A stretch of DNA of 64,000 nucleotides from Lineus longissimus (lineage: Eukaryota; Nemertea; Pilidiophora; Heteronemertea; Lineidae), in contig NC_088323.1 of assembly GCF_910592395.1 (NCBI RefSeq), forward strand, positions 6,818,001 through 6,882,000. The letters are read 5' to 3'. Below, in pieces: positions 32,215 to 50,032 of the stretch. Position 1 is the first letter of the stretch; the number at the start of each line of letters is the position of its first letter. A model generated the notes under the pieces. That model worked only from the letters and a program-made list of their open reading frames with translations, was not told where the DNA came from and did not search any database. A program made the translations under genes and the position numbers.

Positions 32215-32220
32215 GGGCAA
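29827..32220 (-). CDS. LINE reverse transcriptase (copy B), 797 codons
   Basis: Identical to copy A over about 795 residues except one Lys/Arg change in KKL(K/R)VEERVC. All RT motifs are present, including FVDFKQAFD and YADD. The first two codons (Met-Pro) come from flanking DNA. The frame is intact but has no endonuclease domain, so it is unlikely to be autonomous. Confidence 0.9.
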   Translation of the reverse strand: MPAFALSPKNHRLRCLLFKSMRDYKTAIKKQKRSHYNKLMSQLDNLFENNPSQYWGLLNKLKGESENGGEGKNKMSKIPLNEWEDYLRKLNEVPADLINLNKSLADKLSLLKSNPDTGSDILDKEIGTDEILSCLKSLKNNKAHGLDCISNEMLKHSATNMLPCYQKIFNLVFSSSHYPKQWGEGYITAIHKSGSVVDPSNFRGITVMNTLGKMYNTILNNRLTEFLSVNRIINPAQIGFSKKSRTSDHMFVLKTLIEKYTNSNKGKLYTCFVDFKQAFDSVLHPALFLKLKQSGVNGKFYDSIKSMYKKVNLCAKSSNKLSNSFPSAIGVHQGDVLSPNLFKIFINDLESLLDDSSDPVSLKDLKLHCLMYADDIVILSETASGLQKALNGLNNFCSSWGMTINVKKTKVLIFNKAGRIDKSVFMIGQHQLENVGKYKYLGITFQASGVFAEAKRDLHNKALKAFFKLRRIFSSQLPNVSTLLHIFDHTIQPILLYGSDIWGCFNPMSSKVKREREFKIDKGFENLPCENLHMKFCKYVLGVNTNATNLAVYGELGRHPLYLMIAKSMFSFWLRLESLSLNTVDGEISSKSILTSALQVSKDLDNKGKQSWFSCIKFICGCLNLDANNAESVSTSSLVHKLGEEFYRKWKLEIWDDSRNPNAKNKLRTYRSFKTQLCCEKYLTSISSFSLRRSLCCFRISCHDLAIERGRYKKLRVEERVCSCDGTSIEDEVHFLTACPKYDASRNDFFSVINENNINFSGLSPGNKFIWLLSNEDPGICQKLSSFLQKCFSDRIK

Positions 32221-33061
32221 GCCCCCTCGCTTGGTATTTCGAACTATGGTGAACTCGCCAATGAAATGGTTGCAATAATTTTCTCAATTTTCTGCCAATT
32301 ATTGCTGGATCAAGCTACAGCTGAGAATGTAAAGGTATCTTTAGACCATCCTTAGTTTCGATTCACTGATTGGTTGTCGTGATTTGAGCTGAAATGATGA
32401 AATGCTGACATGTTTTCTCATTTCTCAGTCCAGTCTGGGTTTCTTGTCTGGGCTGCTGCTCTCTCTCCATCATCATGTCATCTCTCCATCATCGCAGGCA
32501 TTGGAGATAAGAGCTAGCCTCGAAAATCCAGAGTCAGTCGTATCCTCCTCCCCTCACAGTGGTCGGACATGTTTCTGACCCTGAGTGAAATAAACCGATG
32601 ATTTTTCGCAGGATGAGGCTGACAAATCTAGGCCTACTCCACTAATCAAATTGCTCTCACATCTTTACAACTTAGCAACTCGGTCACTATACAGCACTTG
32701 TCTTAAGAAGTTGGCCTGGAAGTGGCGGCGATACATTTCACACATGAAGTGCACAGTGTCGAAATTAAACGAATTCAGACGGTTTAGTTTAGACGATGGG
32801 AGACTGCTAAAATGTGGAATGTACCAACTGGCAAAGCGAAGCTCCAATCAGTTCCCCCCCCCCCATATTTCAATATTTTCCATGTCCATACTTTGTTTAC
32901 ATACATGCAGCTGATTTGATGACATGATCTTAAATAGTTCCGTTTTATGGCCCCATAGTAATTAATATATGTAAATGAGGCCTCGGAACAGATGTTTGAG
33001 TACATATCGTTGTCTTATCTTGTGACTGGTCATATGATCTCCTATTCACTGTGCTGACAAG

Positions 33062-33145
33062 ATGGAGTCCTTCATATCACATCATTTCCATGCTAAAATT
33101 GTCTCGATTGTTTTGTTGGCGATATTGGCATTATGGTCTGAGAAG
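33062..33145 (+). CDS. GLB1: GLB1-like exon 1, signal peptide
   Basis: The ATG opens a hydrophobic leader, [20 protein letters not shown] then ILALWSEK, a clear signal peptide of about 25 residues. Phase-0 donor AAG|GTTTGT. No other ATG between here and exon 2 fits. The 850 bp upstream (32215-33061) show no gene. Confidence 0.85.
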
Positions 33146-35427
33146 GTTTGTATTGTATTATTGCTTTGAAGAAGAAGTGGTTTTGCATGCATCAGTTCGT
33201 TTTTAGGATGAATTGTGATAGACGATGGCTTTCGTGATCAGAACAGGACTGTCCATCTGTGAATGAGTTTGCAGAAGAAGAAGATCCTCTATCTGTTGCC
33301 TTTATCACCATCTTTTGGTCTAACTCTAAGTCTCCCGAACCTCCTCGGCTGTGAAACAGGTTTAGTCTCCTTCTCCTTCTTCTTTAAAACAGCATTCATG
33401 ACAGTATCAAATTCTTAGGTCTTAGGATGTGACGAATTATGCTGTAACCCTATCGTCAGTCGCCATACCCACGGTTGGTTTGGGGTTTTTGATTCACTCG
33501 TCGGCAAGGTCACATTTCTTGTCTAATTCTTCTTCATGGTTGGCATCAACTCTTACTCACAACATGTCTTTTACAGAAAGGTTTCGGGATTATGCTAAGA
33601 AGTAAATGTAAAGTGCTTTGAGAGAGTAGGCCTACTGTTATACAGTGTAGAAGGAAGAACTATACTGATATCGGACAGTTTGCTTTCTTTTTCAGACATC
33701 TGCAACACGCACCTTCACTATCGACACAGCCAGCCAGAAGTTCTACAAGGATGGGGAGCCGTTTACTTATGTCGCGGGGAGCATGCATTATGCTCGTGTC
33801 CCACCGTATTACTGGAAAGATCGTCTGTTGAAAATGAAAGCGGCGGGTTTAAATGCTGTTCAGTTGTACGTTTCTTTTATTTATTCATACCATGTAAACT
33901 GTTAAATCTACCTTACAATGCATTTGATACTTTTTTTCCACTTGTTCTATTGTTTACCACAGGCCCTATTATGTTTTGGTTGGTTATACCTGAAAAAACA
34001 AGATGGCAGCACTGCACTCTATTCAATAAAGACCTCGTCCCGTGTATTAGCATAGCTATTCTACAGGGTGGCCCAGAAAGGTTTCCTTTGCACAATAGAA
34101 TTCTATTGTGTATCCATTGTGTGAGGGAAAATAATTCTGGGCCACCCTGTACAAGGAAACTTTTCTCAAGCCAATCGGGTGCGGCAAGGGGTACTACTAC
34201 TAAACACTGGCAAAATCCTGTGATCGTGAAAGGGTTAAGGAGGAAGTTCTCCTGCCTCTTCTCTGTGGGGGACAGTACCCTAACAGCAAATGACATTTTT
34301 TGTCCGTTTCCATCGCGTTTTCCAGCATGTTTTTTTAAAAACTCTTTCTATGGCATCACACATAAACTACATCGTCAAATCTGGAACTTACCACTTGCGC
34401 AATATTGGTCGCGCTCGTAAGCTCCTTACAACTGCAGCAACGAAAGAGCTAGTGCACTCACTGGTGATGTCTCGTTTGGACTACGGAAATAGTCTGTTAG
34501 CTGGGGTTAATGAGCAACTCCTGCACAAATTACAACTAGTGCAGAGCCGTGCAGCAAGGATAATTACAAGGCCTCCACTACGTGAGCACATAACACCCGT
34601 TTTGAGAACTCTCCACTGGCTTCCGATACCATATCGTATCGATTTCAAGGTTTTACTCATGGTGTTCAAAGCCAAAAACAACATGGCTCCATCATATATC
34701 TCGGACATCCTGCCATCGTATGTCCCAGGGCGATCCCTGAGATCGGATAACCAAGAATTGTTGGTGACTCCCAGGTATCGCCTTGAGACTTTTGGTGGCA
34801 GAAGCTTTACAGTTTATGCCAGCAAATTATGGAACTCGCTGGACACTAACACCCGCAACAGCTCCACCGTCAGCGAGTTCAAAAGAAGATTAAAAACCAA
34901 ACTATTTGAACAGTGTTTTTGTTAAGCGCAGCTGAGCAATTTTTCTAATTGGATTTTGCGCTATATAAATGCTATTTGTGTGTATGTATGTATGTTTGAT
35001 AATTCTCGTGTTCCCATTTCAGTTACGTCCCGTGGAACTTCCACGAACCAACGCCAGGAATCTATGACTTTTCTTCCCCTGAGAAAAACCTCGTCGGATT
35101 CCTTGAGACCATTCGGGACGTGGGACTCTTGGCAATCGTCCGGGCGGGGCCGTACATGTGTGCTGAATGGGAATTTGTAAGTTACCAGAAATTCGTACGG
35201 AATTGTCTATGTGGCTTGTTGCAATTTGGATTCTTCTGCCATATGTTATCGCATTATCGGTAAATACAAAAAATGTGAAATTCAAATTCAAATTCACTTG
35301 AATATTTCTGGTTTTACTGTACTTATGGTAAGGATACACGATACTATTCCATGGTTTTTGATTGCACATGAAAATTCACCATTGGGGTATTGACTATCAG
35401 TCGCTCACTCCTGCAAGTTGACAATTA

Positions 35428-35462
<35 letters not shown>

Positions 35463-38400
35463 TATATAGCGCTATTCCGTGACACTATAGTTCTCGCTCA
35501 AAGTGCTTTGGGATATCATATTATTACCCCGGTCTCCACAGAAATCAATCAGGGGTTTCAAGGAGCAACCAGAAGGCGCTCACTTGAACTCGACCAGTAG
35601 GGGAACTAAGCAGTGACTCGGCTGGGAGTCGAACCCACGACCTCCTGATCATGAGGCCGACTCCCTTCCACTGCGCTACCGCTGCCACCTCATTTCTCTG
35701 TCAACTCTGCCCCCATATCCCTCCAGGCGTTACGGTCCTGAGCCGTCTGTGTCAATACCTCTCATGCAACTCCAGCGCTCTCTGCCTCTGCATCTCGGGC
35801 TACAGTATCCACCCGGCATGTCTGGCATCGTCCTCTTTGCCATTTGTCTCCAACATTATTTGTGTAACTGAGACAAATTGAACAGAACCAGAAGATAATG
35901 GTACCATTAACATTAGAACCTGGATGAAACCGGCCTCAGGACTCTAATGGTTTGTTTACTGGTAGTAATCCTTTTCTCGTAGGGAGGCATTCCGGCAAGC
36001 ATCCACCCGGCATGTCTATCATCGTCCTCTTTGCCATTTGTCTCCAACATTATTTGTGTAACTGAGACAAATTGAACAGAACCAGAAGATAATGGTACCA
36101 TTAACATTAGAACCTGGATGAAACCGGCCTCAGGACTCTAATGGTTTGTTTACTGGTAGTAATCCTTTTCTCGTAGGGAGGCATTCCGGCCAGCATCCAC
36201 CCGGCATGTCTATCATCGTCCTCTTTGCCATTTGTCTCCAACATTATTTGTGTAACTGAGATGAATTGAACAGAACCAGAAGATAATGGTACCATTAACA
36301 TTAGAACCTGGATGAAACCGGCCTCAGGACTCTAATGGTTTGTTTACTGGTAGTAATCCTTTTCTCGTAGGGTGGCATTCCGGCCTGGCTCTTGAAGGAT
36401 GATGTGGACGTCAAACTCAGAACGGACGACCCAGGTAAGTAACTTACATGTGAAGTGGGGTGGGAGACCAGATGGCATCGGACTTGTGACCAGAAGGTTA
36501 AGAATAATCGTGATGGTTACCTGATTACAGGTATAACTGCTGCTGTCAAAATGCACAGCAGCTATTAATGACACACTACAGTGGAACCTCCCTTAGCGGA
36601 CACCTCTCTATTAAGGACACTTGATTTGGTCCCAAATTGGTTCTTTCCATTCAATTTGACCTCTCTAATCAGGACACCTCTCTATTAAGGACAGCACTTT
36701 TCAGTCCAGAGGGTGTCCTTAATAGGAGTTTCTCCCTTCTGCTTCCTCATTCTAGCCTTCATGATGCACGTGTACAGATACACAGAGAAGCTGAGTCATT
36801 ACATACAGCCCCACATTTACGCGAATGGTGGTCCCGTTATCATGATACAGGTATTCGTTGCATCTGAGTTCATTTTCATGTGTGTAACATTTCTAAAACA
36901 TTCAGTTGCAATATAACTAGTTCTGAAACACTTTCAGAACGTTTTCCTGCAGAAATGTTTTAGAAAAGTTGCAGGTGTCTGAATGGCTTTAGTCCATCAT
37001 AACATCTGGGTGTGCATAAAAACTATGTCTAGTTAACAGGGCTTGATTGACCTTTGTAACAGATAACTTGGGTCAAGAAAATCAACACCGGTGTAGACCA
37101 GTGAGTAAACTAGAAGCTGTAGAAGGGATACATCCCACAAAAGAACTACAGTAGAACCTCCCTTAGCGGACACCTCTCAAAGGACACTAGTTTTGGTCCC
37201 AAATTGGTTGTTTCCATTCAAATTTGACCTCTCTAATCAGGACACCTCTCTATTAAGGACAGCACTTGTCAGTCCCGAGGGTGTCCTTAGTGGAGAGGTT
37301 CCACTGTATTTGATTTCCATATTACCCAACCCATGCAACCTTTTTGTGTCAAACAGATCCAAACACAAAGTTTACTAGTGTTGTGCAGGCTTTAGACTCT
37401 CAGCTGGCGAGCCTAAACATTGTAGGCCTGTTCAAATCTCAGTTGTGACAAAAAATATGACGTGGAAGACATGTATGCATCTGTTCGTTGCAATTTGAAC
37501 AAGTTATCAACCCTTTAAACTAGACCTAGTCTTGTTGCCCCCAGAGCTTGGTGTACGTGCCCATAATCTTTGGTCCCATCCCGATCAAAAACCCGGTCAT
37601 TTGAACACCTCCATCTCTCGTGTCATTGTAGTATATATGAGGAACGCACTGCGTTGGATCATGACCCTCGGGCGCATCATCTACCCGTGGTTTTATCAGG
37701 GAAACGGACCAATTATCATGGTGCAGGTACGTCAGTTATTAGCTCAGCTGAGCACAAGGCTCTTGGGCCTCTTGTTTTTGTTGAAATTGCTGCCAAAGTA
37801 AACCAAATGGCGTCACCCTTTATCACAATCTTACCGGGTAATGTTTGGTTTTATTTCGCTATTTGGAAACATATGCAAACTTAGCATTGCTTCAGAATCA
37901 CAACTTACCAACTAATTGCCAACTAATGTATCTTTACCAACTAATTGCCTGATTTCGTCCGCTGTATTGTGTCATTATATCCTTGAAGAAGTCCAAAAAA
38001 ATGCAAAACCCGGCGTTTCATTTTTTGTTCTTTCTCGACAGGTTGAGAACGAGTATGGCTCCTGGTACGCCTGTGACCACGACTACATGAACAGAATGTA
38101 CCTCCAGTTTAGAGAGTATATGGGGCACGATATCGTCCTGTTTACCACAGACGGAGACGGCCAGGGTTACCTCAAGTGTGGCTCCGTTAAGGATTTCATG
38201 TATGCGACAGTTGACTTTGGAATCAGTGAGTATTGCTTGTGTCCATTCTCCTTGCGAAATACCGGAACTCTATTATATCTACGGTTGTTCCGTCCCTGCT
38301 TGTGTTGGCCACCATTGCCTCTGAATAGGCCATTTCATTATCATGAGACATTTAGGACGTTCAGTCATAGGAAAGTTTGTGACATGGTTGAAATAACACA

Positions 38401-41400
38401 TCAAAACGTTTTAGTTGCAAGGGTTATATTCTAAATGATATAAGTTTTCGTTATTTTTATTTCCCAAAGTGAGTCTGCCGCAAAACCCAACATAAAATAT
38501 GGGGGGCCGGGCCACCTAACAGTTTATAACCCTCCGTGAAGTTTAGGCATAAGAAAGCAACGTTATTGCTACAAACCTGTTATTGACCTATAAACCAACA
38601 TCCTAGCTATTTATTGACATGCAACATCATTTAGACATCATCCCAGCACCATGAACATTGAGACCTGGTCACAAAAGAGACCTAAATTGTGACCCACTCT
38701 GGCAAAATGAGGCTGTTGGCTAAAAATCTTGAAAATGAGTGATTGGTACCGAGTTATTTTGCACAACGCTATCTTTAAAATGGTGTGTGATACATGAGGA
38801 TCTCTCTAGGATGGGCTGAGGAAAAGGACTTCAGAATATATCAGTCTCTAGAATGAAACGTTGAGAAATCCTTGTCCGAAAATAGGTTATTTATGGATAA
38901 GCATTTGAAAGTGCAACTTATAGACATAGTTGATTAAATGACTCAAGAAAGTCCAAAAATCATTTTTCAACTTTTCTCCCCTTTTCTCCCCTTTTCTCCC
39001 TTTTTCTCCCTTTTCCCTAAATGCGACTTCCGCCTCCTTTTGCCAGAGGGTCACAATTGGACCCCTGCAACTACCACCAAATGCTAACTGTGGACAATTG
39101 GTCACTCACGCCAATGCTAACTGTCACGGACATCCCCCTGGTGTGTTGTGACGATGAAATGATATGAAATGGGCCTTATCAGGCATAAAAGCTATACAAT
39201 CATGAAAGTGTATTATTATTTACATAAAGGAGGGTTTGGACAACTGCAGTAATGGGTCAGTAGGCTAAAGACTATTAAGCTAACACATAAAGAGAGATAG
39301 GGCCTACTCTTGAATGCAATAAAGTGACAACTATTAGACGCACAATACATAAGGGAGCCTAAAGCACCTTGCAGAGAAGCAATTTTTGTCACTGTGACCT
39401 GCAATTATAATCAGTCACGGAAATATGCGATAAAAAGATCAATTAAAATGTTTGGATGTTCTTATGCAAGTAAAAGTGATTTGTCATTGTGAAATCTTCT
39501 TCAAGTCTTTCTGCAATTATAATCGCTGCGACGTGCGACAAACAGATCAACTATATTGTTGGGATGTTCTTATGCAAGTATTTTAAAGTGGTTTGTCACT
39601 GTGAAGCCATTCTTCAAATTTGTTTATAATTGAAGGTGTCTGGAGATGATTGTAATTCAGTCTCAAAGTCAGAGTCGGAAATCCATCTGTAATGACCTCA
39701 CTAGTTAGAGCGGCCTTGGTATATTTTGCAGACCCTGATTGTTCGACCCTTGGACATGACAATGTGAGAATCTCTTATGGAAACTCTTGTCTCCTCCCTG
39801 TCAGCCACTGAAGCCATGTCCAGATTTAGGGTTTTATGTCTCCATGTCGGACTTAATTTCCCCTCATTCATTTCCAAGATTTGTAAGACAAACATTTTCT
39901 TATAATTGCCTGCTACAGATAAATCATCCCACATACTTGCCGAGATATCAAAACTCTTGATGTCATCAGGGTGAGCACAAGTAATAACCCATGAGAGGCC
40001 ATGAATTCCTGTGTCACTAATCTCAAAAGCATGGGCACACAATTTCCCAATGACAAAGTTGCACTTTCCTCCACATGTTATCCTGCTGGGCTCGATTAAT
40101 TTCTTATGAATTTCCTCGTCAATCACGTGTGTATGTTCCACACAGCCTTCCTTATCAACAACAGTGATCTGCCTCTCTCCATGCTCATTATCACCGAGGA
40201 TGACGTACTGATGTTGCAGGGTAACTCCAAGTGATAATGGTTTGGCTATGTCAAAGTCACAAGTTGAGCTAATGTAGCCAGTCTGTGAATCAAACAGCTT
40301 GACGCAGCGGCTAGTGTCCCCTGTCCCATCTGAAAGCATGGCAAGTTTTCCGTCCGGAGTTGCAGATACGTCATACAAAGGAGGCACATGATCTTTGAAA
40401 GTGTGTTTCAGTTCGCCTGGGAATTGGTATATGTCCACTGCATTCGATGGTTCTCCCTCTGTCGTTGGATGAGCAACAGCAAACCTCTGGCCCAGGTTTG
40501 CTACGCAGGGAATGAACTTCTCTTTGTCATCTTCCACCATGGTATCCTTATAGATAATTTCCAGTTCATCCTCTTCCTGCCTGGCTTGGGTTTTGTCAAT
40601 CTTTCCTAATGAGTCTATTGCCTCTGGCATGAAACGACAATCTTGATTGTGTAGCTCTCGGAGTTCGGCAGTGTATCCTTCGCCTTGAACATTGTTCCCT
40701 GTTTCGGCAAGAGCTTCCAGGTCCTGCTGCAGTGCAATCAGTCTGTCAAGGTACACTGGTTGATGTTCAGTCTCAGAAAGTAGCTGCCCTGCTCTCTGGA
40801 TGGGCGCCTGCATCTTCTGAACCGTCTCTGACACCTTTTTCAGGCATACGGGAATGTCATGGATGATTAGGTAGTCCGCTTTGACTTTTTCTTTCAAGTC
40901 TTCTTTCCACTTAACAATCTTCTCGATACACTTCTGGGCATGATCCTCGATTTCTTTGATCAGGATATCCTGCTTGTCAACCACTGGAGCAATTCTTGTC
41001 AAGAAAACCAGCTCCTTTTCTACCATCTGCAGTTTCCCTAGCCTTTCCTCTCTCTCTTTCAGAACAACTTTCAATCCCTCGACCTTTGCGTCCACAATTT
41101 CCCCGATCTTTTCCAAGGTGTGATCCCCATGCTCGAGCATCACACACACCATACACACAGCTTGTTTGCATTCGGTGCAGTAGCTATCCAAAGGGGAGTT
41201 GTGCTTTACGCAGACAGCTTCTTGTTTTGGCCTCTCAAGCTGCAAAGGTATTACAGAATGTCCCTTTGTTGCCTTGTTCTTCCCATGAACTTCAGTGCAG
41301 TCTCCACAAATATAAAGGTTCTTGCATTCAACACATAAGTTCACTGCTTGAACTTCCCTTTTCTTGTGTTGACATATCATACACCGCACGTCAAGCACAG

Positions 41401-42157
41401 CCGGCTGAAATTTTCCTCCATCCCTCTTCTCATGCCTTGGAGCATTTACACCTTTCTCCTTCCTGTCCTGCTCCACCATGAAGCCTAGATCCTCAGCAGC
41501 CACCTCCTCTCCTGTGTAGCCAACCAGCCCCTCGACACCATTCCAAGGACGTGGGCAGTCTGCATGACACGAAGGACAGCTGAACACATCACCATCATGT
41601 CTCTGTATAGCATTTGTCAGGCATTCAGTACAGAAGCTATGCTTGCATCTTCCGGCAATCTTGAGTGGTCTGGTCTCGAAGCAAACTAGGCAAACTTTGG
41701 CACTATCTGCAGCCTTTGAAGCCATCAGTTATGAACTCTAAACCTGAAATAAAGGTTAGTTTGTATTAAGGACCATTTTCTTGAATCGCATGGCCTTGTC
41801 CTTCAAGGCCTTCTGCCCTCGGGGAGGGGGGGATGGGGTAATGGGGTAATGGGCCGCTCTAATAGAAGGCGTATGCACCTTGTGTCCATGGAAATTTGTT
41901 ATAGTCCTTTATTGGCTGGGGCTGCCTATGAGCAGCTTCGATCCACACCCGTTTCAGTGGGGTGAGAAGTATTAATCTACCCAGCGGTGGCAGCCTTTTT
42001 AGCTCACCGAAGATCACCTAAACCAATAACATGGGTATTCATTTAAGAAAGCTCTCACTGAGTGCTTTCATCTAAATACCAGTAACATTTCAAATGACAC
42101 ATTTTTAGCTCACCTCTTAGCAGAGGTGAGCTTATCCCATACCGTGGCGTCCGTCGT

Positions 42158-42201
<44 letters not shown>

Positions 42202-45200
42202 CGTCGTCCGTTAGCAGGGCACGTTTCGTAACTGTTAGAGCTATTGAGTTGAAACTTGGTACACATGTACCCTTATGTAACGACACCTTGGAGACTAAGT
42301 TTCGGTCCGATTCGTTTCATGGTTTGGCCACCAGGGGGCCAAACGTTAAAAGTGAAAATATGCAATATCTCCCTTAATAGTAGTCGGGAAATTTTGAAAA
42401 AAATATGGTAGGTACTTCTAGCAAAGGTGCATCATATATCCTCCGGGTTTTTGATTTGACCTCCTTTTCAAGGTCACAGAGGTCAAATGGTGTAAATTGG
42501 CCGTTAGGATGTAACGATGGCACGTTTCTAAACTGCAATGACTATTGATACCAAATTTGGTACACATTTACCCCTTAGTCAGGTTATCTCAGGGACCAAA
42601 GTTTGGTCCAATATGATTCACCACTTGACCACCAGGGGGCAAAATCTAAAAACCTTAAAAATGTGATTATTCCTTAACTTCTTGCCCGATTGCCACCAAT
42701 TTGATATCATGGGTACATCTAACCACCATACAGTATATGTCACACAGGTTTTTAATTTGACCTTCTTGTCAAGGTCACAGAGGTCAAATGGCATAAATTC
42801 GCCGTCAGGCCGTAACTATGGCACGTTTCTTAACTGCAATGACTATTGATCACAAATTAAGTACACATGTACCCCTTGGTCAGGTGATCTCAGGTACCGA
42901 AGTTTGGTGCGATCTGATTTGCCGTTTGGCCTCCAGGGAGGGGGCCAAATCCTAAATTCTTCAAAATGCCATTATTCCTAGTAATGACTTGCCCGATTGG
43001 CACCAATTTTATATCATAGGTAGATCTAATTCTAACAACCATTCAATGTGTCACCCGGGTCTTCTTTGATTTGACCTACTTTTCAAGGTCACAGAGGTCG
43101 AATGTACTGTAAATTGGCCATTTTGGGGAAATTGTAATTGCTTGGACCTACATCAAACCTAACACTACATGACACAATACCATGCTCTTTATCCATCTTT
43201 CCTCCACATGAGGTGAGCACAATGGCCCTGGCCATTTCATCTATCTTGAGCAAAATGCCCACTGGCAGTGAAAGGGTTAAGAATGACCAAACTTAGAAAA
43301 ATTGGCCAAGGAGTTTTTGAATATCTGCCCAAAAGCAAATTGACATTAGGGAGATTGAGATCAGGGAATTATCACAGATCCGTATACGTATACAGTGAAA
43401 ATGTACACAAAATTGTCATCTTTCTACAGAGTTTTATCCGATCCTTGATAAGTCGCTGCTCTCAACCTCCCCAATCTACTATTGAAAAAGCTTATAGTAC
43501 CATACCTTTCTCTATATGCCAAGGCCTGATCTCATTCCTCAGTTCTGACGAAACAAGATTAAGTCTTGAAGACCTGGCTTTGTCGCATAAATCTCATTTG
43601 GGCAGCAACTTTTAATATGGCCATATTCTAGTTGCATATTCCTCTTCTATGGTGTCCTTTCCATTTACTGTTGATAGTTGTTGGGGCTGTTTGTTAAGAT
43701 TGGCCGAAACTATTGAAACAGTTCTCTGAATGGATTCGGGGAATGATTTCCTCGAAATATGACAAGGATTTATTGAGGTCATCTGGGTTGCACAATGCAA
43801 TACGCTCATTACCTACGTATTAATCGATAGCCTATGTATTTATCGACAATGGTGGTTTTCTTGAGATTTCACATACAAAAATGTGTAGTAGCCTATTGTT
43901 CTTGAAGGTAGTCGTAGAGTTCTTTAAAGGGGAAAGGGGAGTGTCCTGAAAATGCCGCGATGACATTCTCTAAAGGGGAGTGTCCTGAAAAGGCCTTTCC
44001 ATTTGCTGTTGATAGTTGTTGGGGCTGGTTGTTAAGATTGGCCAAAGCTATTGAACCAGTTCTCTGAATGGATTCGGGGAATGATTTCCTCGAAATATGA
44101 CAAAGATTTGTTAAAATTATCTAGGACATGCAACAAAAGGGCACTCATCACCTATGTATTTATCGATAATGGTGGTTGAGATTTCACAAACAGAATTGAG
44201 CTTTGAAATATAGTGTGCAGTATTGTACTTGAAGGTACATGTAGTCATGGAATTCTTTAAAGGGGAGTGTCCCGAAAATGCTAAGCTGGAATTCTTTAAA
44301 GGGGAGTGTCCTGAAAATATTAAGCTGACATTCTTTAAAGGGGAGTGTCCTGAAAATGTTGAGCTGGCACATAATATAGACTTGTGTAAGCTATCATGAT
44401 ATATAGTAAGGTACTGACTTCACATAAATCAAAGGTTCCTGCGAAAACAGTTGCTCCATAACCAGATAAATTGATGTTAATAGTACCCTAATCAAATTAC
44501 AAATTTCAACTTTTTAACTAAGGGCATAGGCCTTTAAGGCAACGCCATCAAAATGTTCAGTGCAGAATCAAGTCATCGGCGAACACGTTTAAGGGGGAAT
44601 GGTCACTCTCAGGATACAGGGATTCCATGAATGTCAGGTTTAGGGATAGAGGAAAACTTTGACGAGAAAATCGGGATGGATGGAGAAAGTCGGGAAATGA
44701 AATGTGCAGAATATGCCAAACAGGAATCAGGATTTTTCATTTAACATCTTATTATCGGGATGACCAAAACACTTACCCCTTGTGGTTTGTTGGACTTGTA
44801 GTTTTCTAAAACGACCCCAACCATGATTTGATACATTTGTAGGCCATTTTTATCCCGGCATGAATGTGTATTTTTGCCAAAAAATACTTTACACGCATAG
44901 TTTCATCAGAATACTGTCAACAATTTCAATTTAAACGGGACTCGGGATGTGGCTGAAATAGAATTGCGAACTGGACTAAAGCATGTTTTCTAATGCCAGC
45001 GGGTACCCCCATTCCCCCCCCCTCATATCCAGTTCACTTGATCTCACTTTTTCGTCTTTATTCTTTTCAGCTTCAGACGTCAATGGATCTCTAAAAGTGG
45101 AGCAAGACTTCAACAAAGGTCCCTTGGTGAACTCTGAGTATTATCCGGCCTGGTTTGATGAGTGGGGTGGCCCACATGCCAATACCGCTGTAGGGCCGGT

Positions 45201-48200
45201 TAATAAGACATTGGACGATATGCTGAAAGTAGGAGCTAGTGTTAACATGTAAGTGTTAGAGTATTATCCGGCCTGGTTTGATGAGTGGGGCGGCCCACAT
45301 GCCAATACCGCTGTAGGGCCGGTTGATAAGACATTGGACAATAAGCTGAAAGTAGGAGCTAGTGTTAACATGTAAGTGTTTGAGTATTACCCGGCCTGGT
45401 TTGATGAGTGGGGCGGCCCACTTTCCAATAATGCTGTTCCACATTGCTGATACAAAAAAAGCTATTTGATAGGTCCCTGTCTGAAGTCACCATTTCATTT
45501 GTACCAATTTGGATCCCTTCCCCCGGCCTGTGGCTTGTGTACATGTATGTAGCTAATATCCCACATACTAGCTTGAGGAGCAGTCTAGCGGTGTCAAAGA
45601 ATTGGGGGTCAGGATTGTGGGGTATCAGTTGTTTTCAATTTCAGCAAAGGCCAATAAACCCAATGGGTGCCTAACCATAGTGGCACGTGAAAACCTTCAT
45701 CACGCCTTGAATGAGTAAGTTCCGCCATCACCCTGAAGAGACCGTTTGTGTTATTTTAACACTGAAGCCTTCAGAGAATTAATTAGAAGCTGGAGGGGGT
45801 ATTTTGGCCAAAAATATGGCATAGATCTACGTAAAGGTACTTTTGGTAAAAAATGTGACGTAGACGTACGTCAGGGTATTTTGGGCCAAAAATGTGACGT
45901 ATATCTACGTCAGATGGCGCTGACAGTGTTATATGTGACCCACCACGACAAAAAAGTCGCATGTCGCTCCGAACTAGACAGGTTGAGACGGACTGGTTGT
46001 TCATTTCACTGTTGTCTGCCTTTTGTGACATCTGAGTACATCAATTTCTTCGATTATGTCCTGGTGTCATTTTAGGCTCATCTTCTGTGCGGCATGCGAG
46101 TCATTTTGTCGTGGTGGGTCGCATATGATATACTTGTATTGCAGTTATATGTTCCATGGCGGCACGAACTTTGCTTACATGAATGGAGCAGAGTGCTGCC
46201 CATATAAACCTGTCGTTACGAGTTACGATTACGACGCGCCGATATCGGAGGCTGGGGATACGACGTTCAAATACATGGTGCTGAGGGAAACGATAGGAAA
46301 AGTAAGGTCACATGATTGAATCAGGAATCTTGGGAAATATGTTTTGATTGGTTGTCTATCAGTTCGTGACTGTCGACAACGTCACACGAGTTGTTTATAT
46401 TTTGTGACTGTGTCCTGGCGGAAAAATCATCTTTAAAACATTTGTACATGCAGAACTTTTTTGTCGGTGGATTTAAAACCTTTTTTGCTTGCTGTGATTA
46501 TTTTTTTAAATCCCTTCATTTTGAAAATGAGGAGCCTCATAGCCTTGTGGTTAACGCTGCTGGGTGCCATGGAATAGGGGCCAGGTTTGATCACGGGGAG
46601 AACCCAGGGTTGTATTTCTGGATGAACCGATGTTGGTTTTTCATGGAACTAAAATTCCAGGCTCTTCACGCACAATGTATGCATATTTGAGGGTTCTTCA
46701 GATGAGACTTCCTTGTACCTGAGTGTCTAAGCCACAGCAGGTAAAAGATCCCACATAGGTTGACAGTAGCCTCTAGTCGACTCCACACATCCGGCAAAAA
46801 TCTATTTTACCAGTTACGACTCTGGTAATAATGACGATGATGATGATGAGATATTCTCTGGTCTAATTTCAGTATCATCCTCTACCTAATATGTCCATAC
46901 CTGCTAATACCACCAAGTTTGCCTATGGAAAAGTGCCATTGAAATTTGTAAGTATTCTAGAACTCTGGAACCTTCTATCTTGCAGCAGCATCCTTCAGCT
47001 ACAACAGATGGCGGCCTTCATCATTTGAACAGAGGTGAATAGGAAGCCTAACAGCTTAGTGGTTAGCACTGCGGGCTACCACGCAATAGGGCCCTTGTTT
47101 GATCCTGTGGAGAACCCAGGATTTGTATTCTGGATGAACCACGTGAATTTAAGGAACTAACAATTCCCGGCTCTTTATTGTCCTTCGAATGAGACTTTAA
47201 CCGAGGTTCCTTGTATCTGGTTCCTTTGCCAGGGCAAGCAAGAGATCGCACCAAGTGAGAATCATAAGTAGCTTGCGTGGACTCTCCCCCCTCCGCCAAA
47301 AGGCCAAAAGGCGCTGGGCATATTGGTCAGTATGATGACCGTTGACCAAGTTTTAGCCCGAATCTGCAGCCAGATTCAGCTCCTCACAACTGATCTGGAA
47401 TTCTTCCGATAGCTTCGATTCCTGGTGGGAAATCATCATGACCAAGTTTTTTGACATCTTCAAGATTCCGATTATCCATGAATCAATTATGACATTCTTT
47501 TTCAGTCGTCCACCATCTTGGACACGCTGTGGCAAGTTAGTCCCGCTGGCCCCACAAAGTCGACGTACCCCATCAACATGGAGAGGCTGTTACAGTATTA
47601 CGGCTTTGTTTACTACAGAGTTCGGCTGACCAAGAGTTATACGAACGCCAATCTGAGTGTTCCTGGCATACGTGACAGAGGCTATGTGATGCTGAATTCG
47701 GTACGTTTTTGATAGATGGATATCTGCTGACGTCAGGAGAATGTGTAAACATGCTGCGCTGGCACCCTAGATGCTCTTCAGCATGGTTGGCTGTAGCTAT
47801 TCCTGTCAAAAAACACCTGCACTGCACCCGCGGAGACCACCATTCACATCATGTGACATCACAAGACGACATTCGACGTCATGACTACCTCTGTCGCAGT
47901 GGTGTACATCATCTTCGTAATTTTCAGTATTTTTTCATTGGGAAAACTGACAGAAATTTTGAAATTGGTCAAAATGAAAGTGTTGAATTTGGAACACTTG
48001 AAAGAAATATTTGTGACTTGCCAAAATAAATTTGTACAGTAACTTACTTTGACACTTTGTCCTTCAGGTTCCCCAAGGTGTGCTCCAAGTCGGGGACGTC
48101 ACAGTGTTGAAAAACTTCACTGCAAAAGCCAATGATTTCATGGACATTTTGGTCGAAAACCAGGGGAGGGTTAACTTTGGCAAGGGCATGCTCGGACAGA

Positions 48201-50032
48201 TCAAGGTAAGTAAAGCGCTGCGCAGAGGAGCAATTTTTGTCATTGCATCCTGCGATTTTAGTAGTTCATATGTGCAACAAAAAGATCTCTTGTCTGCAGG
48301 AAAAACTAGTGATCGCTGGGTTTTATATTGACAGCAGTTTGCTGTGATAATAGATTTTTGTTGCCAGTACCTGCGATTGCCACCGCAGATGAGCAGCATA
48401 TCGTCGCATGCAATTTACATTGCAGGAATCAGGAATTTAAATTGCTTGTATGCTATTATGCCATTTTAAACTGAAGGTAGTGTTGGCATCATTTCTCCTA
48501 GCCCAGGCTAGAGGGATTTTCCTTTAGATCAGTTGGTAGATGGATCACCTTGTAAGCAAAAGGTCTGGGGTTCAAACCCTGGTTGGACCTTGGTGTTCTT
48601 CCTCTGTTATATTCAGAAGACTGTTTATCCTTGATGATGATATGGGAAACTTACCGCTCAGGGTTTGAAACCAGAACCTCCGAGAGGCAAGTCGTTTGTG
48701 ACGTTTTTGGGAGATGTCCATTTCAGACGTACAGGTTGATATAATCTTATCAGAATGAGTCAAATACTTTGTTATATACTTCCAGGGTTTGATCTCTAAT
48801 GTGACCGTCAATAAAGATCTCATCACCGGCTGGTACAACTATCCAATCAATCTGGTGAAGGCTGCTGGACATACTGGTGACCAAACTCTTAGATTTAGGT
48901 GAGTGGGCCTATTGCTCCACGATGCAGGGTTTTTAAGGACTACGTTAAAATCTAATATTTGTAATTGAATTTGAGAGGAAAGATCACGCGCGCACGGAGA
49001 ATCATAAGTGATGCGTGACGTCGAAATGACGTCATTTTGTAAACGACGATATCCATCTATGAAATAAGGTAAATGAAATCTATCACACGGTGTTATTTAG
49101 TACCACACATAAAGTATCCTATTTTCTTTCAGACATTTCCCTAGGATGTCGTTTGACACATCGCTGGTGACTCCATCCCTGTACGTCGGATCCTTCCTCG
49201 TCGACAAGTCAATGACGCCCCCTGCTGATACATTCCTGAAAACGTCTGGCTGGACCAAGGTAACGTCTTATAAACTTGGGGGGGGGGGGGGGGGAATTGG
49301 TGTCAACTTTGACTGGTTGGTATCATTAGATGGCCTGGAGGGGGGAAAACTCTGGAGTCGATTGGAACCTTAAAAATGCAGCGTGCAGGCCGATTGGCTT
49401 GTGAAAGCTCCCCGACTCTCATAAGTTGAATCCCCAACTTTGGGTGAATAGCCAATTTGGCTGATGGCTGGGGCACTTTGCACAATAACTCATATGATTG
49501 AAAATACAGAAGAAAAAGAAGAGAAAAAGTATAATTTTGTATGTACTCTATATAAAGTAGAACCTCTCTATTAAGGACACCCTCGGAACTGACAAGTGCT
49601 GTCCTTAATAGAGAGGTGTCCTGATTAGAGAGGTAAAGTTGAATGGAAACAACCAAGTGTCCTTAATTGACAGGTTGTTCTTAATAGAGAGGTGTCCGCT
49701 AAGGGAGGTTCCACTGTACTTTATATCTCATCTTCCAGGGTCAAGCTTTCGTTAACGGCCACAACCTTGGACGCTACTGGCCGGTGAAAGGCCCCCAGAT
49801 AACTCTGTATGTGCCTTCCAGCTTCCTCAAACCGTACCCAGCCAAGAACCACGTGATGTTTTTCGAGCTTGAGAAAGCGCCGTGTACTGCTGGTCAGTCT
49901 TGTATGGTCGAGTTTGTCGATTCGCCGATTTTGAATGGAAAGTCTGCGTTTAATTCCACGATTGTTGAGAAAATGGAACGTGATGCTCGATATGATTGGA
50001 TAAAAAGGAAAGTGGTGCGGCCTGGTGCTTAA
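33062..50032 (+). CDS. GLB1: beta-galactosidase, GH35, GLB1-like; complete, alternative exon 5
   Basis: Hydrolyses terminal beta-galactose from glycoconjugates, normally in lysosomes. Exons: 33062-33145, 33696-33865, 35023-35176, 36371-36434, 5a 36756-36850 or 5b 37632-37726, 38042-38225, 45071-45248, 46145-46301, 46873-46947, 47506-47700, 48068-48205, 48786-48898, 49133-49259, 49739-50032. Any transcript with one exon 5 gives 675 residues, against 677 in human GLB1. N-terminal hydrophobic signal peptide; GH35 blocks [27 protein letters not shown], acid/base Glu in VENEYGS (~193), nucleophile Glu in VNSEYYPAW (~273), [22 protein letters not shown], then the galactose-binding-like C-terminal domain with GRVNFG and [15 protein letters not shown]. 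Some motifs ([14 protein letters not shown]) also recall the paralogue GLB1L, so orthology needs a tree. A TRIM gene lies antisense in intron 6. Confidence 0.95.
33696..33865 (+). CDS. GLB1: GLB1-like exon 2
   Basis: Encodes [40 protein letters not shown] and [14 protein letters not shown], the start of the GH35 barrel. Ends two bases into Phe. Confidence 0.95.
34064..34149. mobile_element. 86-bp mariner-type MITE with TA duplication
   Basis: The ends cagggtggcccagaa and ttctgggccaccctg are perfect 15-bp inverted repeats, flanked on each side by TA. The interior contains a second palindromic stretch (acaatagaattctattgt). Too short to code. Confidence 0.88.
34345..34990 (+). mobile_element. 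LINE ORF2 C-terminal fragment with 3' tail, in GLB1 intron 2
   Basis: The open frame to 34925 reads ...[50 protein letters not shown] and [18 protein letters not shown]: the thumb and C-terminal region of CR1/L2-type LINE polymerases. After the stop comes ttttgcgctatataaatgct and a tgta repeat, a typical 3' end of that group. It is 5'-truncated and uninterrupted, so fairly young. Confidence 0.88.
35023..35176 (+). CDS. GLB1: GLB1-like exon 3
   Basis: Encodes (F)[36 protein letters not shown] and [23 protein letters not shown] is the substrate-cleft block of GH35. Phase-0 donor TTT|GTAAGT. Confidence 0.95.
35425..35695 (-). mobile_element. tRNA-derived SINE with LINE-type tail
   Basis: On the minus strand: GGTAGCGCAGTGGAAGGGAG (A box), GGTCGTGGGTTCGACTCCC (B box), a body, then CAAAGCACTTTGAGCGAGAA and GCGCTATATAAAAGACTC, ending in an ATT repeat. 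The tail resembles the 3' end of the LINE at 34.9 kb, the usual sign of a SINE mobilised by a partner LINE. Confidence 0.8.
35807..36384. repeat. 194-bp tandem repeat, 3 copies, ending in GLB1 exon 4
   Basis: Units begin atccacccggcatgtct at 35807, 36001 and 36195, exactly 194 bp apart. Each ends with ttttctcgtag followed by gg(a/t)ggcattccggc, so the exon 4 acceptor and its first 14 coding bases occur three times (exon-like starts at 35983, 36177 and the true 36371). Only the third copy continues into real exon sequence. Confidence 0.95.
36371..36434 (+). CDS. GLB1: GLB1-like exon 4
   Basis: Encodes [20 protein letters not shown] then P plus one base. GG(I/L)PAWLL is conserved in the family. 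Donor CCAG|GTAAGT. Confidence 0.93.
36579..36733. mobile_element. CAGTAGAACCTC MITE, 22 bp upstream of exon 5a
   Basis: Left end acagtggaacctcccttagc; inner blocks ggtcccaaattggttctttc and caatttgacctctctaatca; right end gggtgtccttaataggag with the last bases eroded. The two ends are inverted repeats, so the RNA copy can form a long hairpin. Confidence 0.85.
36756..36850 (+). CDS. GLB1: GLB1-like alternative exon 5a
   Basis: 95 nt. Completes an Ala codon, then [20 protein letters not shown] and [11 protein letters not shown]. It aligns without gaps to the barrel helix and strand just before VENEYGS in other GH35 enzymes. Acceptor with a good pyrimidine tract (tgcttcctcattctag); donor CAG|GTATTC, weaker than that of 5b. 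Enters at phase 1 and leaves at phase 0, as 5b does. Confidence 0.92.
37149..37309. mobile_element. CAGTAGAACCTC MITE, between exons 5a and 5b
   Basis: Intact palindromic copy: tacagtagaacctcccttag at the left, gtggagaggttccactgta at the right, with TA at both ends, as for a pogo/Tc1-type target duplication. Confidence 0.9.
37632..37726 (+). CDS. GLB1: GLB1-like alternative exon 5b
   Basis: 95 nt, the same length and phases as 5a. Completes a Val codon, then [20 protein letters not shown] and [11 protein letters not shown]. By eye it matches 5a at 11 of 32 residues, with hydrophobic positions and the GP(I/V)IM(I/V)Q end conserved. Acceptor cattgtag, donor CAG|GTACGT (strong). No stop in its frame. 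Confidence 0.9.
38042..38225 (+). CDS. GLB1: GLB1-like exon 6 (acid/base glutamate)
   Basis: Begins [20 protein letters not shown], where the second Glu of ENE is the general acid/base, and continues with [18 protein letters not shown] and ATVDFGI. Ends one base into Thr. Confidence 0.96.
39360..39600. repeat. dispersed repeat fragment, partly duplicated
   Basis: tgcaattataatc(a/g)(g/c)t followed by gatcaa...gttcttatgcaagta occurs twice (about 39399-39470 and 39512-39585). gcagagaagcaatttttgtcact matches the start of the repeat at 48.2 kb. Confidence 0.55.
39701..41725 (-). CDS. TRIM-type RING/B-box/coiled-coil protein, single coding exon
   Basis: Probable RING E3 ubiquitin ligase of 674 residues. 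RING C3HC4: Cys12, Cys15, Cys27, His29, Cys32, Cys35, Cys50, Cys53. Two B-boxes follow, one around [20 protein letters not shown] and one around [20 protein letters not shown] with [10 protein letters not shown] charged coiled coil spans about 215-350. The C-terminal half has repeated blades ([35 protein letters not shown]), suggesting an NHL-like beta-propeller as in TRIM2/3/56-type proteins, but the assignment is loose. No introns in the coding part. An acceptor-like CTTTATTTCAG ends at 41744, 18 nt before the ATG, so a 5' non-coding exon is likely. Lies antisense inside GLB1 intron 6. Confidence 0.93.
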   Translation of the reverse strand: MASKAADSAKVCLVCFETRPLKIAGRCKHSFCTECLTNAIQRHDGDVFSCPSCHADCPRPWNGVEGLVGYTGEEVAAEDLGFMVEQDRKEKGVNAPRHEKRDGGKFQPAVLDVRCMICQHKKREVQAVNLCVECKNLYICGDCTEVHGKNKATKGHSVIPLQLERPKQEAVCVKHNSPLDSYCTECKQAVCMVCVMLEHGDHTLEKIGEIVDAKVEGLKVVLKEREERLGKLQMVEKELVFLTRIAPVVDKQDILIKEIEDHAQKCIEKIVKWKEDLKEKVKADYLIIHDIPVCLKKVSETVQKMQAPIQRAGQLLSETEHQPVYLDRLIALQQDLEALAETGNNVQGEGYTAELRELHNQDCRFMPEAIDSLGKIDKTQARQEEDELEIIYKDTMVEDDKEKFIPCVANLGQRFAVAHPTTEGEPSNAVDIYQFPGELKHTFKDHVPPLYDVSATPDGKLAMLSDGTGDTSRCVKLFDSQTGYISSTCDFDIAKPLSLGVTLQHQYVILGDNEHGERQITVVDKEGCVEHTHVIDEEIHKKLIEPSRITCGGKCNFVIGKLCAHAFEISDTGIHGLSWVITCAHPDDIKSFDISASMWDDLSVAGNYKKMFVLQILEMNEGKLSPTWRHKTLNLDMASVADREETRVSIRDSHIVMSKGRTIRVCKIYQGRSN
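42108..43235. mobile_element. non-coding element with three ~300-bp internal repeats and hairpin end
   Basis: Starts with a perfect hairpin (10-bp arms gctcacctct and agaggtgagc, loop tagc), then a gtc trinucleotide run (42150-42205). Three internal units begin ggcacgtttc at 42219, 42519 and 42830. Each holds ggtacacat(g/t)tacccctt, (c/t)ggccaccagggggc-like and caaggtcacagaggtcaaat blocks. It finishes near acatgaggtgagcacaatgg (43209), repeating gaggtgagc from the start. No reading frame. It resembles widely dispersed invertebrate repeats with GAGGTGAGC ends; the class is unknown to me. Confidence 0.75.
43661..44365. repeat. local duplication (338-bp offset) and short tctttaaaggggagtgtcct array
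   Basis: Block 43661-43785 (ccatttactgttgatagttg ...) recurs at 43999-44120 with scattered changes. attctttaaaggggagtgtc recurs at 44250, 44290 and 44330, with related forms near 43920 and 43970. All within GLB1 intron 6. Confidence 0.8.
45071..45248 (+). CDS. GLB1: GLB1-like exon 7 (nucleophile glutamate)
   Basis: Encodes [20 protein letters not shown] then [20 protein letters not shown] and LKVGASVN plus two bases. The Glu of NSEYY is the catalytic nucleophile. Donor AAC AT|GTAAGTG. Confidence 0.96.
45136..45445. repeat. 123-bp tandem copies of the 3' part of exon 7
   Basis: gagtatta(t/c)ccggcctggttt occurs at 45136 (in exon 7), 45259 and 45382, 123 bp apart. The second copy runs through the same GTAAGTG donor (45372). 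The third stops after about 60 bp. The copies are in the intron and differ from the exon by a few bases (gtt-gat, aat-aag), so they are young but already diverging. Confidence 0.95.
45935..46122. mobile_element. ~190-bp MITE, ends gtgacccaccacgac, next to exon 8
   Basis: The left end gtgacccaccacgacaaaaa is inverted at the right (tttgtcgtggtgggtcgc). Both flanks read atat. The inner arms gtcgcatg and catgcgagtc extend the palindrome. It ends 22 bp before GLB1 exon 8, so it overlaps that intron's branch and pyrimidine region. Confidence 0.8.
46145..46301 (+). CDS. GLB1: GLB1-like exon 8
   Basis: Encodes (I)[38 protein letters not shown] and [12 protein letters not shown]. The short acceptor tattgcag follows directly on the MITE. 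Confidence 0.95.
46525..46855 (+). mobile_element. tRNA-derived SINE, copy 1
   Basis: A box tagccttgtggttaacgc, B box caggtttgatcacg, then aacccagggttgtatttctg, the shared body, gacagtagcctctagtcgac and a tail of gatgat repeats. Same family as 47035 and 62552. Confidence 0.75.
46873..46947 (+). CDS. GLB1: GLB1-like exon 9
   Basis: 25 codons, [20 protein letters not shown] then VPLKF. KFAYGKV is conserved at the end of the barrel domain. Phase 0 both sides. Confidence 0.92.
47035..47330 (+). mobile_element. tRNA-derived SINE, copy 2
   Basis: A box aacagcttagtggttagcac, B box ttgtttgatcctg, then gagaacccaggatttgtatt. Only about 100 bp from exon 9; the tail is eroded. Confidence 0.7.
47506..47700 (+). 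CDS. GLB1: GLB1-like exon 10
   Basis: 65 codons: [31 protein letters not shown] and [20 protein letters not shown] and RDRGYV match the first beta-sandwich domain after the barrel. Confidence 0.94.
47770..47935. repeat. dispersed repeat, inverted partner at 50640-50805
   Basis: Contains caaaaaacacctgcactgca, ggagaccaccattcacatca, gacgtcatgactacctctgt and cgcagtggtgtacatcat. The reverse complement of the whole block recurs in the GLB1 3' UTR. Confidence 0.85.
48068..48205 (+). CDS. GLB1: GLB1-like exon 11
   Basis: 46 codons: [20 protein letters not shown] and [28 protein letters not shown](F/Y)G is the family signature of this domain. Confidence 0.94.
48210..48420. repeat. dispersed hairpin-rich repeat copy
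   Basis: gcagaggagcaatttttgtc, aacaaaaagatctcttgtct and gatttttgttgccagtacct match pieces at 39.4, 19.3 and 8.1 kb. It begins only a few bases after the exon 11 donor. Confidence 0.5.
48515..48605 (+). mobile_element. tRNA-like sequence, SINE head
   Basis: tagatcagttggtagatgga (A box) and tctggggttcaaaccctggt (T arm and B box, perfect 5-bp stem) at tRNA spacing. The acceptor stem does not pair, so a SINE head is more likely than a functional tRNA. Confidence 0.5.
48786..48898 (+). CDS. GLB1: GLB1-like exon 12
   Basis: Encodes [37 protein letters not shown] plus two bases of Arg. GLIS(N)VT is the conserved start of this segment. Confidence 0.92.
49133..49259 (+). CDS. GLB1: GLB1-like exon 13
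   Basis: Encodes (R)[39 protein letters not shown] and WTK, continuing into GQAFVNG. The downstream intron opens with a 16-bp G run at about 49279. Confidence 0.93.
49556..49718. mobile_element. CAGTAGAACCTC MITE in last GLB1 intron, inverse orientation
   Basis: Intact, reading as the reverse complement of the copies at 36.6 and 37.2 kb (agtagaacctctctattaag ... gctaagggaggttccactgt). It ends 20 bp before exon 14. Confidence 0.88.
49739..50032 (+). CDS. GLB1: GLB1-like exon 14 with stop codon
   Basis: 97 codons: [44 protein letters not shown] and FVDSPILNG, the C-terminal jelly-roll of GH35, ending VVRPGA and TAA at 50030-50032. Confidence 0.96.
   Translation, partial: GQAFVNGHNLGRYWPVKGPQITLYVPSSFLKPYPAKNHVMFFELEKAPCTAGQSCMVEFVDSPILNGKSAFNSTIVEKMERDARYDWIKRKVVRPGA

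Follow-up and report, generated by a model that had tools for sequence, protein, structure and literature searches.

Does the GLB1 locus of the nemertean Lineus longissimus carry one exon 5 or two exchangeable versions of it? Two 95-bp segments lie in tandem where this beta-galactosidase gene of family GH35 has its exon 5. The first-pass annotation of this DNA had read them as homologous, mutually exclusive exons, 5a and 5b, for the same helix and strand before the VENEYGS motif. The window analyzed is the 64,000-nucleotide stretch C16:6818001-6882000 of the Lineus longissimus genome, and searches of the genome covered 391 Mb in 30 contigs. Positions are those of the window unless a contig is named.

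The gene and its two versions of exon 5

The gene was rebuilt from the initial exon calls as an intact GLB1 gene (GH35 beta-galactosidase) at 33062-50032 on the plus strand. The model has 14 exon positions with two versions of exon 5, and every intron is GT-AG (Table 1). The model with 5a is letter for letter identical to P0001, "beta-galactosidase-like isoform X2 [Lineus longissimus]", and together with the complete gene model this match supports the GLB1 identity first assigned to the gene. In the protein database, P0001 is the representative of a five-member cluster, all on one contig; the X2 label and the size of the cluster suggest, but do not prove, that NCBI has annotated several products of GLB1.

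Table 1. Exons of the GLB1 gene model in the window, including the two candidate alternative exons 5
Feature	Position	Strand	Remarks and basis
GLB1 exon 1	33062..33145	+	start codon, signal peptide likely; gene model, 5a isoform = P0001
GLB1 exon 2	33696..33865	+	phase 2 at end; gene model
GLB1 exon 3	35023..35176	+	gene model and genome family search
GLB1 exon 4	36371..36434	+	phase 1 at end, ...GACCCAG followed by gtaagt
Alternative exon 5a	36756..36850	+	95 bp; gene model, profile; in P0001 (isoform X2)
Alternative exon 5b	37632..37726	+	95 bp; gene model, profile
GLB1 exon 6	38042..38225	+	starts VENEYGS; acid/base Glu193
GLB1 exon 7	45071..45248	+	nucleophile Glu273, NSEYYPAW
GLB1 exon 8	46145..46301	+	gene model and genome family search
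GLB1 exon 9	46873..46947	+	gene model
GLB1 exon 10	47506..47700	+	gene model
GLB1 exon 11	48068..48205	+	gene model
GLB1 exon 12	48786..48898	+	gene model
GLB1 exon 13	49133..49259	+	gene model
GLB1 exon 14, last	49739..50032	+	stop TAA 50030-50032

The GH35 catalytic domain and two C-terminal beta-galactosidase domains (PF01301, PF21317 and PF21467) scored above the Pfam cut-off in both isoforms, and the Pfam GH35 score of the full protein was 367.5 bits for the 5a form versus 357.7 bits for the 5b form. E193 and E273 were invariant in an alignment of 54 sequences and are taken to be the acid/base and the nucleophile, respectively, by correspondence to human E188 and E268. By its sequence, the worm GLB1 is a member of the acid beta-galactosidase family, with predicted activity.

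The structure predicted for the 5a form (mean pLDDT 90; 89-97 over blocks 151-200) matched human and mouse acid beta-galactosidase (3THC, 3WF2 and 7KDV) with TM-scores of 0.95-0.96 by target length and 46-47% sequence identity, the two human structures 3THC and 3WF2 scoring 0.95. In this structure, exon 5 covers residues 158-189 and corresponds to a helix (157-177), a turn and, as far as Gln189, a strand (185-192). VENEYG, which contains Glu193, follows in exon 6. According to the model, swapping the exon would exchange one helix of the barrel together with most of the strand that runs up to the acid/base Glu, in support of the segment first proposed for the two alternatives. By comparison with the human enzyme, exon 5 is not known to hold any of the catalytic residues, and stability, working conditions or a binding surface would be likelier to change than the chemistry.

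Exons 5a and 5b are each 95 bp long, the length also of human GLB1 exon 5. Both have ag and gt borders, are entered in phase 1 and left in phase 0, and contain no stop; the gene model and the sequence comparison thus confirmed the sizes, borders and phases initially described. Aligned without gaps, the two are identical at 11 of 31 whole codons and 45 of 95 nucleotides. The split 32nd residue is Ala in 5a and Val in 5b, hence the 11 of 32 that had been counted by eye. With 5a alone or 5b alone, the product is open and 675 aa long. Since 95 is not a multiple of three, both exons or neither lead to a stop. Joined, 5a and 5b read ...IMIQ-Y-I-stop after residue 191 (stop codon 192, two codons into 5b), and without either exon the frame reads ...DDP-G-stop after residue 158 (stop codon 159). 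Both stops had been predicted from the sequence, and both were found. The frame logic permits only one of the two exons in a full-length enzyme, in agreement with the claim that exactly one must be used. The introns measure 321 nt (4-5a), 781 nt (5a-5b) and 315 nt (5b-6).

The same stop in the double-inclusion product could serve a different end. Exon 5b (or 5a) might be an untranslated poison exon, which would lower GLB1 via nonsense-mediated decay when added to the other copy, and the 781-nt intron between the copies is long enough to be spliced. A poison exon, however, needs no GH35 frame, no 31-codon length, no hydrophobic core and no family motifs, and both copies keep all of these far beyond neutral expectation. 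This explanation is therefore considered unlikely.

The genome family searches, whose counts are lower bounds, gave one further GH35 gene. It lies on another contig (C19:14039235-14045269, minus strand) and has the GH35 catalytic domain in common with the worm GLB1 but differs from it in intron positions: its introns lie elsewhere in the exon 4-6 region, and one of them splits the segment matching exon 5. Because of this split, a 31-residue exon-5 profile scored no higher than -3.0 bits anywhere in the 14 kb read at this gene. The exon pair as a copy or echo of the C19 gene was rejected on account of these differing introns, including the one within the exon-5 segment.

Several other features were observed at the locus. 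A 194-bp unit is present three times in tandem at 35804-36385, with copies 96-98% like the first. The unit ends with an acceptor and the first 15 bases of exon 4, which gives three near-identical acceptors in a row, and only the last of them continues into exon 4. At 45136-45437, the 3' part of exon 7 and its donor are repeated 2.5 times (123-bp unit), and reading beyond the first exon 7 donor meets TAA at once. The 6.8-kb intron 6 of GLB1 contains, on the opposite strand, a TRIM-like open frame of 675 codons (39701-41728, minus strand), in which a B-box zinc finger scored above the Pfam cut-off and RING matches scored below their cut-offs. At 27300-32283 on the minus strand, just upstream of GLB1, lie two consecutive open frames, each about 820 codons long and encoding a reverse transcriptase domain (131.8 bits); they are probably tandem retroelement copies.

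Tandem copies such as the 194-bp (x3) and 123-bp (x2.5) repeats are what might be expected if the exon pair were an assembly artefact or what is left of a second GLB1 gene that had inserted into the intron. With just 45 of 95 bases in common, exons 5a and 5b are neither haplotypes nor an assembly echo, and the sole other GH35 gene found, on C19, has different introns in this region. An origin of this kind is hardly credible.

Homology, constraint and drift of the two copies

An exon-5 profile was built from 97 distinct gap-free sequences of 119 relatives (P0002-P0120), with P0001 left out. Of the 28,948 open stretches of 31 codons in the six frames of the window, exons 5a (37.8 bits) and 5b (35.2 bits) ranked first and second. 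No third copy of exon 5 was found in the window, where the next best profile score was -4.1 bits. The profile score of either exon was not reached by any of 20,000 shuffles of its own residues. Against human GLB1, 165-aa fragments scored 184.0 bits with 5a and 183.4 bits with 5b; as the fragments have 134 of their 165 residues in common, all that the near-equal scores say is that 5b is about as good a fit as 5a. Thirteen core columns are hydrophobic in at least 90% of the relatives. Exon 5a keeps 11 of them and 5b keeps 12, and as many were kept in 23 (5a) and 10 (5b) of 10,000 shuffles.

The identity between 5a and 5b was 17, 17 and 11 of 31 at the first, second and third codon positions, respectively. 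The proportion of nonsynonymous differences (pN, 0.443) was lower than that of synonymous differences (pS, 0.817; Fisher P = 0.003 with rounded counts), where pS is saturated and the pairwise value averages both branches. In neutral simulations with 45 substitutions per copy, which is about the observed divergence (mean of 44.4 shared bases), 8% of the 4,000 runs ended with both copies open, and none ended with both open at 35 bits or more. With 35 substitutions per copy (mean of 50.7 shared bases), both copies scored at least 35 bits in 0.2% of the runs. When a single copy was left to decay neutrally, its score was kept in 62 of 4,000 runs after 40 substitutions and in 0, 1 and 0 of 4,000 runs after 60, 80 and 100 substitutions, respectively. 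The simulations modeled substitutions; indels and the loss of splice sites would lower survival further. Past coding constraint on 5a and 5b is evident from their sequences for the pair as a whole, the branches not being separable.

Both copies have, by sequence comparison, drifted from a normally conserved segment. They scored below every relative in the profile (35-38 versus a minimum of 63.9 bits, with the 97 relatives scored in-sample). The mean identity of exon 5 to 15 chosen relatives of the 119 was 0.37 for 5a and 0.38 for 5b, and the identity among those 15 relatives was 0.65, with a lowest value of 0.585. When exons 2-13 were compared, the worm was 0.01-0.12 under the mean identity of the others in exons 2-4 and 6-12 and slightly over it in exon 13. 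The difference between exon 5 and the outside (residues 33-360, 0.575) in identity to the family consensus was -0.22 for 5a and -0.16 for 5b, versus a mean of +0.01 (sd 0.07) in the 119 relatives. Exon 5a has F for Y159 (100% in relatives) and Y for W166 (96%). Exon 5b has G for N181 (98%), a residue present there in 0 of 97 relatives. Both copies depart at L171 (99%; S or G instead) and at P172. These broken near-invariant positions could mean relaxed constraint.

A similar drop in exon 5 was found in two acorn worms (P0120, -0.23; P0059, -0.22) and a shark (P0089, -0.16), indicating that the drift of the worm is unusual but not unique. P0120 is from Ptychodera flava and P0059 from Glandiceps talaboti, and the GLB1 of both departs from the consensus far more in exon 5 than elsewhere. 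The search with the 5b region hit 25 proteins, one of them named as Prevotella, and 24 of the 25 scored 21.9-33.3 bits in the exon-5 segment. These low scores indicate that there are intact GH35 proteins whose segment departs from the animal consensus to this degree.

The distance of both copies from the consensus, with near-invariant positions broken, would suit a non-functional duplicate that has acquired no stop so far, and no relative with the pair was found by name in the region searches or in the best 120 of 7,994 whole-protein matches. The copies differ at 50 of 95 bases, however, and hence such a duplicate would not be recent. Neutral change did not leave both copies open at such scores in any of the 4,000 runs, and a single decaying copy kept its score almost never (0, 1 and 0 of 4,000 runs at 60, 80 and 100 substitutions). 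The splice sites of both copies are intact. A decaying duplicate was the outcome that the first-pass annotation had set against its own proposal. The retained frame and splice sites, the retention of most of the hydrophobic core and family motifs, the pN below pS, and the failure of neutral simulation all speak against decay, and loss of function in one copy is regarded as improbable, slightly more so than a poison exon.

Among 119 other GLB1-like proteins, the worm's own protein being removed, the nearest copy was 5b for 85, 5a for 21, and a tie for 13. This split indicates that neither copy is plainly the original. When the 31 residues were placed in a tree with 33 selected relatives, the two copies formed a group at 64% ultrafast bootstrap.

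Of 86 candidates in the region search with 5b, 25 passed, none nemertean by name, and the cluster of P0001 is represented by its 5a form; a transcript or protein record with 5b was not seen among these. With 5a, 9 of 20 candidates passed, and none was nemertean by name except P0001. The Tubulanus protein P0004, read as one protein sequence of its cluster, has a consensus-like exon 5 that is identical to each copy at 14 of 31 residues. A second nemertean with the 5a/5b pair was not seen among the region-search matches by name or among the best 120 of the 7,994 matches of the whole-protein search, beyond which weaker partial nemertean sequences could lie.

Splice sites and the choice between the copies

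Splice sites were scored against the other sites of GLB1 itself. The 5a donor (-0.3) is the weakest of the gene, that of 5b scored 9.8, and the constitutive donors scored 2.8-11.0. The 5a acceptor (2.1) is likewise the weakest, with 3.7 for 5b and 3.5-11.0 for the constitutive acceptors. Between 36435 and 38041, scores at least as high as those of 5a were found for 31 of 108 GT and 25 of 91 AG, and scores at least as high as those of 5b for 1 of 108 GT and 16 of 91 AG, the sites themselves included. Despite its weak splice sites, 5a is the form in the database protein.

Two mechanisms of exclusion, neither of which defines mutually exclusive exons as a class, received no support. Steric exclusion is unlikely because the 781-nt middle intron is too long, and a U2/U12 mismatch is not seen, as all donors are GT and the intron-4 donor gtaagt is U2-like. 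The 60-nt stretches that precede the acceptors of 5a, 5b and 6 contain one TCCTTAAT string, located 40 nt before 5a inside a dispersed repeat.

This repeat is a self-complementary element of about 145 bp (GTGTCCTTAATAGAGAGG... type), with one copy upstream of each alternative exon. Pieces of the copies at 36575-36721 and 37145-37289 are 91-97% alike. Further copies occur near 49534, 53532, 54313, 57598, 63100, 63223 and 63696, and at C19:14036001-14036196. The duplex between intron 4 and the 5a-5b intron scored -188.9 versus -136.8 ± 7.6 in 60 plain shuffles, and in the other two intron pairs duplex pairing was not above that of shuffles. When 36435-37631 was folded, the repeat copies paired with themselves, with 0.0 expected cross pairs. 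The excess bears on possible RNA pairing of the docking/selector type, but it is due to the dispersed self-complementary repeats, which fold on themselves in the model.

A recent duplication driven by the repeat was rejected, because the repeat is dispersed, with copies elsewhere in the window and on C19, and because comparison of the 5a flanks with the 5b flanks gave, outside the repeat, no matches but those of 9-22 bases. From the sequence, the duplication of 5a and 5b looks old. With no steric bar, sites of U2 type, and excess pairing confined to the repeats, regulated recognition of unequal sites is favored as the way in which the choice may be made.

Known exon pairs and the meaning of the worm pair

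The worm pair resembles the exon 5 pair of SNAP25 and exons 4a/4b of OGDH in that two neighboring homologous exons, equal in length and phase, encode the same segment within a folded domain and are frame-incompatible if joined. OGDH 4a/4b are mutually exclusive exons in an enzyme (PMC2581893; PMC7969005). Exclusivity in OGDH is enforced by distant branch points, whereas the worm gene has no sign of such a device, given that the last AG lies 85 nt before the 5b acceptor and that the intron is 781 nt long. Of 629 mutually exclusive clusters in a survey of humans, 377 (60%) include exons whose length is not a multiple of three (PMC5740500). The worm pair differs from SNAP25, OGDH and the cases of the human survey in that it is predicted from the gene sequence and that the gene encodes a lysosomal-type glycosidase.

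Human GLB1 has a single exon 5 and alternates between products by leaving out exons 3, 4 and 6, whereas the worm has two copies of exon 5. The human exon is nevertheless the same exon as the worm pair and a hub of alternative splicing, from which wrong combinations are removed by nonsense-mediated decay, as reported in PMC2631023. The junction primers given there show human exon 4/5 and 5/6 borders consistent with those of the worm, and the human 4-6 junction primer (...GACCCAGGTTGAA) is consistent with the worm exon ends GACCCAG/GTTGAG. In the same source, a band for HeLa GLB1 transcripts with the 4-6 junction appeared only when decay was blocked by cycloheximide, a result given as "data not shown".

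Human elastin-binding protein (EBP) suggests one further use of two exons, namely, that one would serve an EBP-like short product (exons 2-5-7) and the other the enzyme. In the worm, either combination, 2-5a-7 or 2-5b-7, stays in frame to the end and would give 541 aa with exon 5 read in frame +1, and human EBP likewise skips exons 3, 4 and 6 (PMC2631023). Given the amino acids, however, this frame would be open by chance with a probability of about 0.35 for 5a and 0.49 for 5b, so that its openness is no evidence, and both exons keep the enzyme frame too. Such a division between the copies is very improbable.

Exons 5a and 5b are thus best explained, with high confidence, as a real mutually exclusive pair in GLB1, with the wrong products removed by nonsense-mediated decay. 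An ancestral 95-bp exon 5 would have been copied within its intron, and both copies would have diverged while remaining coding. Each transcript would contain one copy, both copies being spliced in vivo, and the choice would depend on regulated recognition of the unequal sites, with a weak 5a donor and a strong 5b donor, and on no physical bar. Transcripts with both copies or with neither would stop at codon 192 or 159 and would be expected to undergo nonsense-mediated decay. The output would be two 675-aa beta-galactosidases with identical N-termini, Glu193/Glu273 and C-terminal domains. They would differ in helix 157-177 and most of strand 185-192, the barrel wall beside the acid/base site, and the difference may lie mainly in stability, partner surface or working conditions and less in chemistry. 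The worm can probably make two versions of the enzyme, distinguished by one wall of the catalytic barrel.

The pair appears to be new for GLB1, and mutually exclusive exons as a kind are well known, also in enzymes. No description of such a pair was found in searches on GLB1 or beta-galactosidase, glycoside hydrolases, lysosomal enzymes and nemerteans among the titles and abstract openings listed from one open-access library, which agrees with the initial statement that none was known in GLB1. By term look-up, "GLB1" and "galactosidase" are absent from the main texts of PMC9741552, PMC5740500 and PMC9013439, and terms for exon 5 and mutations gave no match in PMC7012745.

A regulated switch, in which the two barrel walls would suit different compartments (e.g., lysosome versus gut or mucus secretion) or different partners, is a tentative reading that is rather less likely than not to hold. 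If it is true, splicing would take the place of the vertebrate GLB1, EBP and GLB1-like paralogues, and the copies would have diverged by adaptive division of labor. Two interchangeable and diverged versions of exon 5 are a natural experiment on which substitutions are tolerated in this segment and what effects they have. If the pair is real, the exon around which the splicing of human EBP turns has become a place of alternative use in a distant phylum, under the same frame-based quality control.
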